Origin: Hypericibacter terrae
Lineage (GTDB): Bacteria; Pseudomonadota; Alphaproteobacteria; Dongiales; Dongiaceae
Reading direction: 5' to 3'
Length of the DNA stretch: 64,000 bases
NCBI RefSeq assembly: GCF_008728855.1
Contig: NZ_CP042906.1
Location: 5,485,001-5,549,000, forward strand
Shown here piece by piece: positions 53,433 through 59,917 of this stretch. The notes beneath the pieces are model-generated. The model worked only from the letters and a program-made list of their open reading frames with translations. It searched no databases and was not told the origin of the DNA. Each line of letters opens with the position of its first letter. Position 1 is the first letter of the stretch. Both the position numbers and the translations under genes were made by a program.

Positions 53433-55037
53433 TCAGGCCTCGCCGCCGGCGTCCCTGTCGGGCGTTGCCGGTGCGGCGACAGCAGGCGTTGTGCCCTTCT
53501 TGCGCGAGAGCGCCTTGGAGAAATCGGAACGGGCGAAGGCGCCGAACAACAGGCCCAGCCCGGCATAGGCGACGAGCCCGACCGTCACCAGCACCACCAG
53601 CATGATCAGCCTCAGCCAGCCGCCGGCGGCGATGAAGGGGTCGATCGCCCAGGTCGTCCCCAGCAGGATCGCCGTCATCCCGAGGCTGGCGAGGAAGATG
53701 CGCGGCAGGCGGCGTTTCAGCCGCGCGTCCATCACGAAATGCTCGAGCCGGAAGAGCTTCGCGCCGAGAAGCGTGGCGTTGAGCGTCGTCGCCAGGGTGG
53801 TGGCGATCGGAATGCCGATGAAGCCGATGGTCTGCGACAGCCCGACGCTGAGCGCCACATTGGCCGCGACCGCGATCAGCGCGACGCGGAAGGGCGTGGT
53901 GGTGTCCTCGCGCGCGAAGAAGCAGGGGGCGAAGGCCTTGACCAGGGCGAAGGCCGGCAGGCCGGCGGCGAAGGCGGCGAGCGCCCAGGCCGAGGCGTGG
54001 CTGGCCTCGGCATCGAAGGCCCCGCGCTCGAACAGCGTGGTCATGATCGCGACCGGGATGGCCAGCAGCGCCATCGTCGCCGGAATGATCAGCGTCATCG
54101 AGAATTCGACGCAGCGATTGAGATTATGCATCGCGACGTCATGCCGGCCGGCGCGCAAGGAGCGCGTGAGCGTCGGCAGCAGCACCACGCCGACGGCGGC
54201 ACCGATGATGCCCAGCGGCAGCTGGAACACGCGGTCGGCGTAATAGAGATAGGAGACGGCCGCCGGGAAGCTGGTGGCGATGATGGTGCCGACCACGATG
54301 TTGATCTGGGTGACGCCGCCCGAGAGCAGCCCCGGCACCATCAGCTTCAAGAGCCGTTTGATCTCGGGATCGATGCGCGGCATCGGCAGCGACAGCACCA
54401 TGCCGGCGCGGTTGCAGGAGAAGACCAGCCAGATGAACTGGCAGAGGCCCGAGGCCGCGACCGACCAGGCCAGCACCAGGCCCGGGCGTCCGGTGAAGGG
54501 CACCACGAAGATGAGAGCGCCTGCCATCACCACGTTCAGCAGGATGGGGGCGGCCGCCGGCGCGCCGAAGCGATGGAGCGAGTTGAGGATGCCGCCCTGG
54601 AGCGCCGTCAGGGACATGAACAGGAGATAGGGGAAGGTCACTTGCGTGAACTGCACCGCATAGCCGAACTTGACCGGATCCTCGGTGAACCCCGGCGCGA
54701 TGATCCACATCAGCCAGGGCATCGCGAACTGCGCGCCGATGGTGAAGAGCAGCAGCCAGAACAGCAGGACCGACATCACGCGCTCGGCGAAGGCCTTGGC
54801 CGCGGCCGGCCCCTGCTGCTCGAGCCGGCCGGCGAACATCGGCACGAAGGCCGCGTTGAAGGCGCCCTCGGCGAACATCTGGCGGAACAGGTTGGGGAAG
54901 CGCATCGCCACGAAGAAGGCGTCGGCGATGGGCCCGGTGCCCAGCGCATGGGCGATCAGGATGTCGCGCAGGAAGCCGCCCGCGCGGCTGACGCCGGTGA
55001 GAGAGCCGACTTTGACGATCGAGCCGATCAGCGCCAT
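53433..55037 (-). CDS. murJ: Lipid II flippase MurJ
   Basis: Polytopic MOP-superfamily protein of 534 aa that flips lipid II. The start GSIVKVGSLTGVSRAGGFLRDILIA, the segment FFVAMRFPNLFRQMFAEGAFNAAFVPMF (conserved arginines) and about 14 helices are visible. In many alphaproteobacteria murJ directly follows glnD; here a 2-kb insert on the opposite strand separates them. Confidence 0.96.
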   Translation of the reverse strand: MALIGSIVKVGSLTGVSRAGGFLRDILIAHALGTGPIADAFFVAMRFPNLFRQMFAEGAFNAAFVPMFAGRLEQQGPAAAKAFAERVMSVLLFWLLLFTIGAQFAMPWLMWIIAPGFTEDPVKFGYAVQFTQVTFPYLLFMSLTALQGGILNSLHRFGAPAAAPILLNVVMAGALIFVVPFTGRPGLVLAWSVAASGLCQFIWLVFSCNRAGMVLSLPMPRIDPEIKRLLKLMVPGLLSGGVTQINIVVGTIIATSFPAAVSYLYYADRVFQLPLGIIGAAVGVVLLPTLTRSLRAGRHDVAMHNLNRCVEFSMTLIIPATMALLAIPVAIMTTLFERGAFDAEASHASAWALAAFAAGLPAFALVKAFAPCFFAREDTTTPFRVALIAVAANVALSVGLSQTIGFIGIPIATTLATTLNATLLGAKLFRLEHFVMDARLKRRLPRIFLASLGMTAILLGTTWAIDPFIAAGGWLRLIMLVVLVTVGLVAYAGLGLLFGAFARSDFSKALSRKKGTTPAVAAPATPDRDAGGEA

Positions 55038-55133
55038 AGGAAAACCGCGGCGCCCAAGCTCTCAGGAAACGCTATTGTTCCCTTGAGGAGTCGGAGTTCT
55101 GCAGAGTCCTCGCGCTTTGGCGGGAAACTCGAC

Positions 55134-55325
55134 TTACTTTTGATCTGGTGGCTCGCTGTCTTGTGTACGCAACCTATGGTCTGTACCGAGTCGCGCCGAT
55201 TTTGGCGCTTCCTCTACGGGCAACTTCTCCCGCCTTAACCCTCGGTCCCAGCCATTTACATCCTGTACGGCCGCGTCCAGCTCTTCGCGTAACCAGCTAT
55301 ATTTGTTGGTATTGCTTTGAGCCAT
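55134..55325 (-). CDS. Small hypothetical protein
   Basis: A possible 63-aa protein beginning MAQSNTNKYSWLREELDAAV and rich in charged residues. The helical stretch WLREELDAAVQDVNGWDRGLR looks protein-like, and GAGAG lies about eight bases before the ATG. No family is recognised, and the opposite frame is also open, so coding is uncertain. It points toward murJ. Confidence 0.4.
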   Translation of the reverse strand: MAQSNTNKYSWLREELDAAVQDVNGWDRGLRREKLPVEEAPKSARLGTDHRLRTQDSEPPDQK

Positions 55326-55385
55326 CGCCAGTCTCTCTATCTAAGGATGCATAAGCAACGACTCGATACCACGTTTTCGATCGCG

Positions 55386-55414
55386 TTGACAGATTCCCCT
55401 TTCCAGGAAACAAT
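55386..55414 (+). promoter_or_regulatory. Candidate sigma70 promoter before the deaminase
   Basis: TTGACA (55386-55391) is a perfect -35 box, with AACAAT (55409-55414) at 17-bp spacing as a weaker -10. Transcription would begin just before or within the hairpin at 55423. A second exact TTGACA at 55445-55450 has no good -10 at normal spacing. Confidence 0.35.
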
Positions 55415-55422
55415 GATTCTGA

Positions 55423-55446
55423 GGCGATTCTTTCGCCCATTTTTTT
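55423..55446 (+). terminator. Intrinsic terminator-like hairpin upstream of the deaminase gene
   Basis: GGCGA-TTCTT-TCGCC (55423-55437) forms a 5-bp stem with a 5-base loop and is followed by CA and seven T (55440-55446). It ends 49 bases before the deaminase ATG on the same strand. It could end a small upstream RNA or attenuate read-through into the deaminase gene. Confidence 0.5.
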
Positions 55447-55495
55447 GACACAATTTACTATCTCAGGTTGAGTAACCATATTAAAGGAATCGGAT

Positions 55496-57064
55496 ATGGC
55501 TGAGATTAGCGAAACAAGTGAGTTTTTAACGCCATTGAAAGGCCAGGAACTGGTCTTCGGGCTCGTAGGCCCCATTGGTGCGGACCTAAAGCTCGTGGCA
55601 GAGGTTCTGAGCCAAGAACTTGCCAATGTTCGGTACGTCGCAAAGCGGATCAAAATTACCGACTGCTTTGAGTCTTTTGAGCATGATTTTCGTCTCGTTA
55701 GGCGGCCTCTGGAAGCTTACTACAAAAGCTATATCGATGCCGGCAATGAGCTCCGAAAAATCACTCAGCGACAAGATATCCTGGCACTCATGAGCATCGC
55801 TGCAATTCGGCGGGCCAGAAGCGAAATTACCGGCGATCGAAAAGTTCCTGCCTCTCGAACTGCCTACATCCTTCATCAGTTCAAACGACCGGAAGAGATT
55901 TCTGCACTGCGACGGGTGTACGGACCGTGCTTTGTGCAAATTTCCGCTCACTGTCCAAGAAGGCTCCGCGAACTCTCCTTAACCGACAAAATTTCAGAGT
56001 CATATTCGCACGAGAGACGCGGCGACTACTATCAAGCCAAGGCCGTTGAACTAATCGTCAGAGACGATGCCGAAGAAGAGATTACTTGTGGGCAGCGAGT
56101 CCGCGAAACGTTTCCGTTGGCCGACGTAGTTATCAACGCAAGTTCTCCGGAAACCGTAAGACAGACATGTAGGCGGTTCATCGAAGCATTCTTTGGGAAT
56201 TCCTTCATTACCCCAACACTGGACGAATACGGCGTCTATCTCGCTCGATCGGCCGCGCTGAGATCGGCTGATCTCTCAAGGCAAGTGGGGGTGGTGATTG
56301 CGAATGAAGGAGGCGACGTAGTCGCCGCAAGCTGCAATGAAGTGCCAAAGGCTTTCGGCGGGGCGTACTGGCCAGAAGATACCTTTGATTTACGGGACTT
56401 CAAGCTTGGCTATGACCCGAGTACAAAGGTAAAGCGCCAAATTCTCTCTGACGTCTTTCGACGATTGAAAGACGGTGGCTGGCTCAGCGATGGGCATTGC
56501 AATAAAGACGTGTCTGCACTTGTCGAAGAATCGCTCGATGGCAAATCCGGCTTGATGCACGATTCCTCTATAATGGACATCCTTGAGTTTGGTCGAGTCG
56601 TCCATGCTGAAATGCATGCTCTCAGTACTGCCGCAAGGAACGGTATTCCAGTAAAGGGCGCGACTCTCTTCACAACAACTTTTCCATGCCACATTTGCGC
56701 TAGGCACATAGTAGCCGCCGGCATTAAACGTGTTGTCTATGTTGAGCCTTATGCAAAGAGTCTGGCTGGCGAGCTGTATCCCGATTCCATCGAGATCGAA
56801 GGAGATAGTCGGGTTGCCGGCCCAAAGGTCTCCTTCGAGCAGTTCAAGGGAATCGGATCTCAACGTTTCTACTCAATCTTCCAGAAACGGCAACGTAAGG
56901 ATCGCAGAGGGAATGTCATCGCGTGGAGCGCTCCCTCGGCGGAGGCGATTCCAGAGCTATTGGTTGCCGCTTATGTAAATATAGAGTCGGCTGTCCTCAA
57001 ATCCTTGTCCGAGCACCTTGCACAAGTGAACTTGAAACTTCGAACACCTGATCTGGCGGCGTAG
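55496..57064 (+). CDS. Antiphage dCTP/dCMP deaminase (AvcD/DcdV-like)
   Basis: A 522-aa fusion protein. The N-terminal half is a P-loop kinase-like domain opening LVFGLVGPIGADLKLV (residues 19-34), a Walker A-like loop without the usual lysine, as in AvcD/DcdV. The C-terminal half is a zinc-dependent deoxycytidylate deaminase: H370-A-E372 (VVHAEMHAL) and P-C398-x2-C401 (FPCHICARHI). In characterised members the enzyme depletes dCTP/dCMP on phage infection and is held inactive by an upstream small RNA. AAAGGA precedes the ATG. The gene is less GC-rich than the window and interrupts the glnD-murJ neighbourhood on the opposite strand. Family assignment is by motif and layout. Confidence 0.85.
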   Translation: MAEISETSEFLTPLKGQELVFGLVGPIGADLKLVAEVLSQELANVRYVAKRIKITDCFESFEHDFRLVRRPLEAYYKSYIDAGNELRKITQRQDILALMSIAAIRRARSEITGDRKVPASRTAYILHQFKRPEEISALRRVYGPCFVQISAHCPRRLRELSLTDKISESYSHERRGDYYQAKAVELIVRDDAEEEITCGQRVRETFPLADVVINASSPETVRQTCRRFIEAFFGNSFITPTLDEYGVYLARSAALRSADLSRQVGVVIANEGGDVVAASCNEVPKAFGGAYWPEDTFDLRDFKLGYDPSTKVKRQILSDVFRRLKDGGWLSDGHCNKDVSALVEESLDGKSGLMHDSSIMDILEFGRVVHAEMHALSTAARNGIPVKGATLFTTTFPCHICARHIVAAGIKRVVYVEPYAKSLAGELYPDSIEIEGDSRVAGPKVSFEQFKGIGSQRFYSIFQKRQRKDRRGNVIAWSAPSAEAIPELLVAAYVNIESAVLKSLSEHLAQVNLKLRTPDLAA

Positions 57065-57085
57065 GATTCCCTAAAGCCGCGTGCC

Positions 57086-59881
57086 CTACTCGGCCGCGGC
57101 CGAGTCGCTGTCGGGGTCGCTTGGCGAAGGCGCGGCCGGGGGCGACGATGTCTTGGCCTCCCCCTCCTCGAGCACGGCCATCAGCGCGTCGCGGATCGGC
57201 TTGAGGCGGGCATCGCCCTCGACCTTGAGGCCGAACTTGTCCTTCACATAGAACACGTCCACGGCCCGCGCGCCGAAGGTCGAGACCTTGGCCGACATGA
57301 TCTGCAGTTTCTGGGCGGCGAGCGCCTTGGTCAGCCCATAGAGCAGGCCGCGCCGGTCGCGGCCATTGACCTCGATCAGGCTGTGTTCGGCCGAGCCCTT
57401 GTTGTCGATCAGCACGCGCGGCGCCACATTGAAGAGCTCGGTGCGCCGGCCCAGGGGCGAAGGCGGAAACACCAGGTCGGGCGGCGCCGGCTCGTCGTCC
57501 GCCAGCATCCGTTCCAGGCATTGGCGGATACGCTTCAGATCCTCGGGCCGCTCGATCTCGCGGCCTTCGCCGTCCTGGACCTGGAAATTGTCGAGCGCCT
57601 TGCCGTTGGCGAGCGTGAAGATGTCGGCGGCCGCGATGTTGGCGCCGGCCAGCGCCAGCGCACCCGCGAGCCGCGCGAACAGGCCCGGCCGGTCGGCGGT
57701 ATAGACCGTCACTTCCGTGACCGCGCGCCAATGGTCGATGCGGGTGTCGAGGGCCAGCGCATCGCCGGCGCGTTCCGCGCGCTCGACCAGCCGCGCATGG
57801 CGCGCCAGCGTCTCCTTGTCGTAGGCCAGCCAATAGGAGGGCGTGCCGCGCGCCACATGGGCGGCGAAGGCGGCATCGGTCCAGTCGCCGAGCTCGCTGC
57901 GCAGCGCGTCGACCGCGACCTTGACCCGCTCCTCGCGCTTCACGGCGATGAGCCCGCCCGAGATCAGCTCCTCGGCGCGCCAATAGAGATCGCGCAGCAG
58001 CTGCGCCTTCCAGCCGTTCCAGACCTTGGGTCCGACCGCGCGGATGTCGGCCACCGTCAGCACCAGCAGCAGCCGCAGCCGTTCGAGCGATTGCACCGCG
58101 GCGACGAAATCCTGGATCGTCTTGGGATCGTCGATGTCGCGCTTGAAGGCGGTGTTGCTCATGATCAGGTGGTAGCGCACCAGCCAGGAGACGGTCTCGG
58201 TCTCTTCATCGGTGAAGCCCAGCCGGGGCCCGAGCTTGAGCGCGATGTCGGCGCCCAGCTCCGAATGATCGCCGCCGCGCCCCTTGGCGATGTCGTGCAG
58301 CAGCACCGCCAGATAGAGCACGCGGCGCGACTGCACCAGATGCACCACCTCGCTCGCGATCGGCACCTCGTCCTTGATCAGCCCCTGCTCGATCTTCCAC
58401 AGGATGCCGATGGCGAAGATGGTGTGCTCGTCGACCGTGAAGTGGTGATACATGTCGTACTGCATCTGCGCCACGACGCGGCCGAAATCCGGCATGAAGC
58501 GCCCGAAGACGCCGGCCTCGTTGAGGCGGCGCAGCGTGATCTCCGGCCCCTTCTTCGAGGTCAGCATCGCGACGAAGAGCCGGTTGGCCTCGGGGTCGGC
58601 GCGCAGCTTGGCATCCACCAGCTTCAGATTGCGCGTGATGAGCCGGAGGCTCGCCGGATGGATATCGAGATCGTGACGTTGCGCCACCTCGAACAGGCGC
58701 AGCAGATTGACCGGATCCTTCACGAAGGCGTCCGCGTCGGCGACCGCCAGCCGGTCGCCATCGACCGGGAAACCCTCGATCTCGCGCTGGAACAGGCCGA
58801 ACCGCGCGCGCGACAGCAGCGATCGTTTCTGATGCTGGGCCTCGAGCACGGCGCAGAAGATGCGCGTCAGGTCGCCCACCGACTTGGCGATGAGGAAGTA
58901 ATGCTTCATCAGCCGCTCGACGCCGCGCGAGCCGGCATGGTCGGTATAACCCATGCGGCGCGCCAGCTCCGGCTGCAGATCGAAGGTCAGCCGCTCCTCG
59001 GGCCGGTCCGCCAGGTAGTGAAGATGGAATCGCAGCGACCAGAGGAAGGCCTCGGCCTTTTCGAAGCGCCGCACCTCCTCGGCCGTGAAGACGCCGCGAT
59101 CGATCAGCGTCGCCACATCCTCGACGCGATAGAGATATTTCGCGATCCAGAAGAGCGTGTGGAGGTCGCGCAAGCCGCCCTTGCCGTCCTTGATGTTGGC
59201 TTCGAGCGAGTAGCGCGAATCGCCCATGCGCTTGTGGCGCGCCTTGCGCTCGGCAAGCTTGGCCTCGACGAAGGCGGGCCCCGTGCCGGCCACGATCTGC
59301 TTGAGGAACTTGGCGCGCAGATCCTGATTGAGCGCCTGCTCGCCCCAGATATAGCGCGCTTCGAGCAGGGCCGTGCGGATGGTGAGATCGTTCTTGGCCT
59401 GGCGGATGCACTCATCGACCGAGCGCACCGAATGTCCGACCTTGAGGCCCAGATCCCAGAGCCGGTAGAGCATGTATTCGATCACCTGCTCGACATAGGG
59501 CGTGCGCTTGTAGGGCAGCAGGAACAGGAGATCGATGTCGGAATGGGGGGCAAGCTCGCCGCGGCCATAGCCGCCGACCGCAACCACGGCGAGGCGCTCG
59601 CCGGTCGAGGGGTTGGCCAGCGGAAACACCAGCTGCGTCGCCGCGTCATGGAGCGCGCGGATGATCTGATCCATGAGATAGGAAAGGGTGCGTGCCGCCA
59701 TGCGCCCGTCGCCGGTGGCGTCGAAGCGCCGCCGCACCTCGGCGCGGCCTTCCGCGAGCGCCGCTTTCAGCACCCGGGAAACCGCGGCCTCATCGAGCTT
59801 GCCCTCGTCGGCCAGCGCCGCCAGCTCCACGGTCAGCTTGCGCCGGTCGATGACCTTGCGGGGATCGGAGATTTCTCCCAT
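57086..59881 (-). CDS. glnD: [Protein-PII] uridylyltransferase/uridylyl-removing enzyme
   Basis: Nitrogen sensor of 931 aa that uridylylates PII. Nucleotidyltransferase motif GGYGRGELAPHSDIDLLFL, the HD domain with LHDIAKGRGGDHSELG, and two C-terminal ACT domains (VTVYTADRPGLFARLAGALA; IEVNGRDRRGLLYGLTKALA) are in the expected order. ATG 59881 (MGEISDPRKVIDRRKL) is preferred over ATG 59917 because a TATAAT lies between them. Confidence 0.96.
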   Translation of the reverse strand: MGEISDPRKVIDRRKLTVELAALADEGKLDEAAVSRVLKAALAEGRAEVRRRFDATGDGRMAARTLSYLMDQIIRALHDAATQLVFPLANPSTGERLAVVAVGGYGRGELAPHSDIDLLFLLPYKRTPYVEQVIEYMLYRLWDLGLKVGHSVRSVDECIRQAKNDLTIRTALLEARYIWGEQALNQDLRAKFLKQIVAGTGPAFVEAKLAERKARHKRMGDSRYSLEANIKDGKGGLRDLHTLFWIAKYLYRVEDVATLIDRGVFTAEEVRRFEKAEAFLWSLRFHLHYLADRPEERLTFDLQPELARRMGYTDHAGSRGVERLMKHYFLIAKSVGDLTRIFCAVLEAQHQKRSLLSRARFGLFQREIEGFPVDGDRLAVADADAFVKDPVNLLRLFEVAQRHDLDIHPASLRLITRNLKLVDAKLRADPEANRLFVAMLTSKKGPEITLRRLNEAGVFGRFMPDFGRVVAQMQYDMYHHFTVDEHTIFAIGILWKIEQGLIKDEVPIASEVVHLVQSRRVLYLAVLLHDIAKGRGGDHSELGADIALKLGPRLGFTDEETETVSWLVRYHLIMSNTAFKRDIDDPKTIQDFVAAVQSLERLRLLLVLTVADIRAVGPKVWNGWKAQLLRDLYWRAEELISGGLIAVKREERVKVAVDALRSELGDWTDAAFAAHVARGTPSYWLAYDKETLARHARLVERAERAGDALALDTRIDHWRAVTEVTVYTADRPGLFARLAGALALAGANIAAADIFTLANGKALDNFQVQDGEGREIERPEDLKRIRQCLERMLADDEPAPPDLVFPPSPLGRRTELFNVAPRVLIDNKGSAEHSLIEVNGRDRRGLLYGLTKALAAQKLQIMSAKVSTFGARAVDVFYVKDKFGLKVEGDARLKPIRDALMAVLEEGEAKTSSPPAAPSPSDPDSDSAAAE

Positions 59882-59887
59882 CGCGCC

Positions 59888-59917
59888 ATTATAGGGCGTC
59901 GGCCTCCTTCCCGCCAA
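59888..59917 (-). promoter_or_regulatory. Candidate glnD promoter, possibly leaderless
   Basis: On the minus strand TATAAT (59893-59888) is a perfect -10 and TTGGCG (59917-59912) a four-of-six -35 at 18-bp spacing. The -10 ends six bases before the glnD ATG, so transcription would start at or next to the start codon. No ribosome site precedes that ATG, which also suits a leaderless mRNA. Confidence 0.4.

Follow-up and report, generated by a model that had tools for sequence, protein, structure and literature searches.

The best-described relatives of the gene reported here are the AvcD deaminases of the AvcID systems of Vibrio cholerae (VC0175), V. parahaemolyticus and E. coli (ETEC). AvcD is held back by an RNA, AvcI, which is lost once a phage stops host transcription (PMC10511110, PMC12409362; the mechanism of characterised relatives is also treated in PMC9455884), and the AvcI transcript of V. 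parahaemolyticus is about 280 nt long (PMC10511110). A gene specifying the same protein architecture, including the zinc deaminase motif, is present in the window (the whole 64,000 nt stretch of the Hypericibacter terrae genome analysed here), and like AvcID it is a small locus on mobile or island DNA. It most probably represents a one-gene antiphage defence of the AvcD/DcdV type, a dCTP/dCMP deaminase that was acquired horizontally and inserted between glnD and murJ, a reading to which we assign a probability of about 0.9. The window enzyme differs from those of AvcID in that it belongs to another, mostly alphaproteobacterial branch and has a P-loop of the form GPIGxD rather than GxxGSG, and no AvcI antitoxin RNA is recognisable at its locus. 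Its identity to gammaproteobacterial plasmid-borne relatives is about 30–34%.

The deaminase gene (nt 55,496–57,064, plus strand) is intact, codes for a full-length protein of 522 aa without an internal stop, and begins with an ATG codon preceded by AAAGGA. The zinc/catalytic HAE (residues 370–372, nt 56,603–56,611) and the zinc-binding PCHIC (residues 397–401, nt 56,684–56,698) are both present, and H370, E372, C398 and C401 are invariant in the aligned relatives; conservation of the zinc motif and of the P-loop region was seen in alignments of about 37, then 21, homologs. The original prediction had described the protein length and both deaminase motifs correctly, and its right end (nt 57,064) stands, but the left limit it gave, nt 55,038, is the edge of the surrounding insert and not the start of the gene. 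It had also pointed to a P-loop-like N-terminal domain without lysine. In the P-loop-like segment (ELVFGLVGPIGAD, residues 18–30, nt 55,547–55,585) the lysine is indeed missing, with G28 at the Walker-A position, but this glycine is invariant in all of the aligned homologs, among them the gammaproteobacterial relatives (the V. cholerae protein was not part of the alignment). Since every homolog examined lacks the lysine, its absence was rejected as a special feature and is uninformative about the window gene. The invariant glycine suggests that the N-terminal domain is not an active kinase but a pseudokinase that binds a nucleotide or another ligand, and it is more likely to bind a nucleotide or an inhibitor than to phosphorylate anything.

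Searches of curated profiles and defence databases placed the protein in the antiphage family. It matched the NCBIfam equivalog NF041025 ('anti-phage dCTP deaminase') with 445.2 bits against a cut-off of 400, across profile positions 1–435 of 437, and the PADLOC dCTPase profile with 500 bits, while a match to PHROG 9198 indicates that relatives are borne on phages. The domain content of these three families is the same as that of the window protein. An AlphaFold model based on 21 homologs (pLDDT 84, pTM 0.81) has two domains, and Foldseek returned the adenylate-kinase-related proteins 3lw7 and 3h0k for one half, and the PBCV-1 bifunctional dCMP/dCTP deaminase (7fh4) and human dCMP deaminase (2w4l) for the other. 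As modelled, the protein joins a domain resembling adenylate kinase to one of the dCMP/dCTP deaminase kind. The PBCV-1 enzyme shares the deaminase fold and sets a precedent for dCTP activity, but it consists of a single domain of 140 residues, lacks the kinase-like N-terminal domain and falls outside the antiphage family; a solved structure of a full-length relative was not found by sequence. Judged by its profile matches, the window gene is an ordinary member of the known AvcD/DcdV family, and the predicted fold also supports the identity that had been proposed for it.

The deaminase gene is carried by an AT-rich insert of about 2.04 kb (nt 55,038–57,076) that is flanked on the left by murJ (534 aa, nt 53,433–55,037) and on the right by glnD (nt 57,086–59,917). 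Both flanking genes are on the minus strand and the deaminase is on the plus strand, so that it converges with glnD, their stop codons lying 21 bp apart. The left edge of the insert is the first base beyond the ATG of murJ. Homology to the congener ends at nt 55,037 and returns at about nt 57,074–57,077, and the right end of the insert is about 10 bp short of the glnD stop codon at nt 57,086. Across 55.0–57.0 kb the GC content drops from 66–70% to 47–53% (about 51% for the insert overall), and GC3 is 0.53 in the deaminase gene versus 0.86–0.93 in four flanking genes (glnD 0.89, murJ 0.93, mutS 0.90), with the genes of the window serving as the only reference for codon comparison. These values and the strands agree with the original prediction of an AT-richer insert opposite to glnD and murJ. 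The prediction had also noted the lack of an integrase and of terminal repeats, and searches of the insert ends likewise found no direct or inverted repeats, integrase or tRNA. The best imperfect end-to-end direct repeat was at chance level (97 of 500 shuffles), so that the ends bear no mobile-element trace that would account for the entry of the insert.

In the single congener available (GlnD 89% identical), murJ and glnD are separated by 130 bp with no gene between them, and in further genomes of the taxonomic family with assembled junctions murJ adjoins glnD with short spacers and without the deaminase. In the window, some 115 bp of the spacer seen in the congener are not recognisable, so either the insertion was not clean and sequence was lost, or the spacer has diverged. 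Since relatives have glnD and murJ side by side in the same orientation, murJ has probably been cut off from upstream transcription by the insert. The deaminase family was detected in 18 of 385 genomes of the class and in 2 of 17 genomes of the order, namely those of the window and the congener. The congener's own deaminase (G001:C1:236211-237653; L003, L060) is found at a different place, has a P-loop of the GSG type, shares 36% identity with the window enzyme and belongs to another clade of the tree; the two are not orthologous. Even the nearest sequence found (L044) is only about 46% identical to the window deaminase, and relatives occur on conjugative plasmids, small plasmids and proviral contigs. 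The foreign composition, the empty site of the congener and the patchy, non-orthologous distribution argue for horizontal acquisition, and support the earlier proposal of a single-gene defence insertion in a core locus.

Two observations on the wider distribution may be added. The pair of Hypericibacter genomes represents two independent acquisitions of an antiphage deaminase within one genus. An antiphage dCTP deaminase is essentially the sole cargo of many plasmids of about 4.6 kb from Klebsiella and E. coli (L072, L077, plasmid hits H16–H40), where it lies beside a ColRNAI-type origin, and full-length relatives are also encoded on two unannotated 5 kb 'Bacteriophage sp.' scaffolds from human faeces (L075, MT838710; H42, MT839973), which are possibly not phages but small plasmids.

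Two other explanations of the gene itself were considered. A housekeeping dCMP deaminase of the ComEB/Dcd type could be AT-rich by accident, and the zinc motif with its surroundings, about 55 residues in all, does resemble ComEB and viral dCMP deaminases. However, the RibD, TadA and ComEB models reach the deaminase motif only (ComEB: residues 367–421, 47 bits where the cut-off is 219), the Pfam match is limited to the deaminase zinc region, and the two-domain profile of the antiphage family is matched full length and above its cut-off, covering residues 18–467, so that the N-terminal domain missing from housekeeping enzymes is present here. The gene is also absent from the remaining 15 genomes of the order, and a housekeeping role appears extremely improbable. 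The low GC content, the isolated position and the lack of a mobile partner would suit a decayed remnant without function, but a reading frame that is uninterrupted over its full length and keeps all of the invariant catalytic and structural residues makes decay very unlikely.

If the gene is an acquired antiphage deaminase, as we consider most probable, its mode of action can be outlined from the characterised relatives, the window protein being known from its sequence and predicted structure. In the uninfected cell the deaminase would be kept inactive by an inhibitor. Shut-off of host transcription by an infecting phage would cause the inhibitor to disappear, and the released enzyme would turn dCTP/dCMP into dUTP/dUMP, lowering the dC pool and impairing phage DNA replication. 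The 458 bp upstream of the window gene yielded neither an AvcI RNA nor a proven antitoxin, which means that the regulatory half of AvcID is either absent or unrecognised there.

A recurrent feature of related loci bears on the question of an inhibitor. Within a branch of the deaminase tree comprising clades A, B and C, 29 of the 30 members with sufficient upstream sequence have an ORF of 52–76 aa on the opposite strand that starts 10–120 nt upstream of the deaminase, versus 5 of 37 members outside the branch. The divergent ORF of the thirtieth member (L162) is 206 nt from the deaminase, and that of one of the 29 (L093) has no recognisable relative. Overall, the ORFs at the loci concerned (L017, L018, L021, L067, L087, L089, L103, L105, L106, L108, L110, L111, L114, L141-L143, L151-L157 and L161-L163) are about 55–75 aa long and lie on the opposite strand about 20–210 nt upstream. 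Family A (Rhizobium, Ciceribacter, a Pararhizobium plasmid and others) has a conserved tryptophan, family B comes mostly from proviral contigs and shows the motif ALxDFR, and family C is marked by RGPYVIxDxDL; L141 and L152 were assigned to family C by position and clade, as they are missed by the profile of the remaining members. In the deaminase tree, each of the three families maps to a single clade, with support of 99/97, 100/98 and 100/100. Synonymous differences outweigh non-synonymous ones in the pairs compared (for example, pN 0.16 vs pS 0.74, 0.24 vs 0.66 and 0.22 vs 0.75), most substitutions fall at third codon positions, and the small ORFs are under purifying selection where tested. 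None of the families matched Pfam or NCBIfam, and PHROGs gave non-significant matches only. Homology among the three was undetectable by hhalign, for which reason they are not claimed to be a single family. The small ORFs are unmentioned in the literature searched, which excluded most subscription papers and probably the founding AvcD/DcdV papers. Their clade specificity, excess of synonymous changes and absence from Pfam and NCBIfam suggest that they are, very probably, genuine companion genes that have so far gone undescribed, and for their role an inhibitor or an autoregulator would be the obvious guess.

For the window enzyme, control may be sought in an RNA or in such a small protein. The 458 bp upstream of the deaminase gene (nt 55,038–55,495) would be enough to encode, on the same strand, an inhibitory RNA as long as AvcI of V. 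parahaemolyticus, and contain terminator-like hairpins as well as a sigma-70-like promoter match (TTGACA-17-AACAAT, nt 55,386–55,414, plus strand), the latter by consensus only and with 1.2 such matches expected by chance for the one found. On the other hand, the region had no match in Rfam, folded no better than shuffled sequences (z -0.42 and +0.34) and had no DNA relative in the 41 relatives' genomes or in the plasmids searched, leaving an arrangement of the AvcID type possible but doubtful. At seven loci of the gammaproteobacterial type (L069, L071, L072, L074, L077, L146, L149) the AvcI position directly upstream of the deaminase is occupied by a same-strand ORF. Its 56–79 aa product has a shared end, [IL]-x-W-stop following Lys/Ser (for example, SKSLKW, SKKITW and SKLDW), and one pair gave a pN of 0.31 vs a pS of 0.63. 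As AvcI was published as a non-coding RNA, a conserved peptide at its position is worth attention.

Control by a divergent small protein, as suggested for clades A–C, would make the window locus a cassette of two genes. The window deaminase sits just outside the A+B+C branch (support 100/96), and representatives of these clades (Ciceribacter L018, a Pararhizobium gei plasmid, L067, and IMG/VR L111) have the same P-loop type and are about 36–42% identical to it. Their divergent ORFs lie mostly within about 120 nt of the deaminase, whereas the window has only a candidate, an ORF of 63 aa (MAQSNTNKYSWLREELDAAVQ..., nt 55,134–55,325, minus strand) that is 170 nt away. Among 739 ORFs it was the best non-training match to the family C profile (8.4 bits), and with the ten-member profile only 2 of 2000 shuffles equalled it. 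The regularity of the divergent ORFs across the branch, the correspondence of each family to one deaminase clade and the low pN relative to pS also favour such a cassette. Against it, the E-value is only 0.09, the shuffles equalling the candidate rise to 13 of 2000 with an eight-member profile and to 502 of 2000 with a six-member one, where the effect is gone, and hhalign gave a probability of 8%. Codon usage lends no support for coding (p 0.73), and most of the tested ORFs of families A, B and C score higher. Moreover, no such ORF accompanies the deaminase of L066, which branches between the window and A+B+C, or those of the nearest outside relatives, L044 and L052. With a profile similarity that is weak and dependent on the model, the ORF at nt 55,134–55,325 is listed as a candidate gene only, and a two-gene cassette in the window seems unlikely. 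A second small ORF (nt 55,297–55,479, minus strand, 60 aa) was rejected, since it matched no profile and its third positions are AT-rich. The L066 locus, on a Zymomonas plasmid, has a minus-strand ORF of 99 aa located 93–392 nt upstream of the deaminase, with a Cys/His-rich segment (CxCPxC...CxH) that by eye is SWIM zinc finger-like.

The filled site in H. terrae and the empty site of its congener provide a clean before-and-after pair for the entry of a lone defence gene into a core gene pair. Looking more widely, it is a tentative and rather improbable proposal that the deaminases of the mostly alphaproteobacterial branch, including that of the window, are controlled by a divergent protein of about 60 residues that replaces the AvcI RNA or acts besides it. 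If true, loci currently listed as single genes in defence databases would be two-gene, protein-regulated defence modules. The conserved, clade-specific small ORFs offer a direct and testable candidate for what silences these deaminases outside Vibrio and E. coli.
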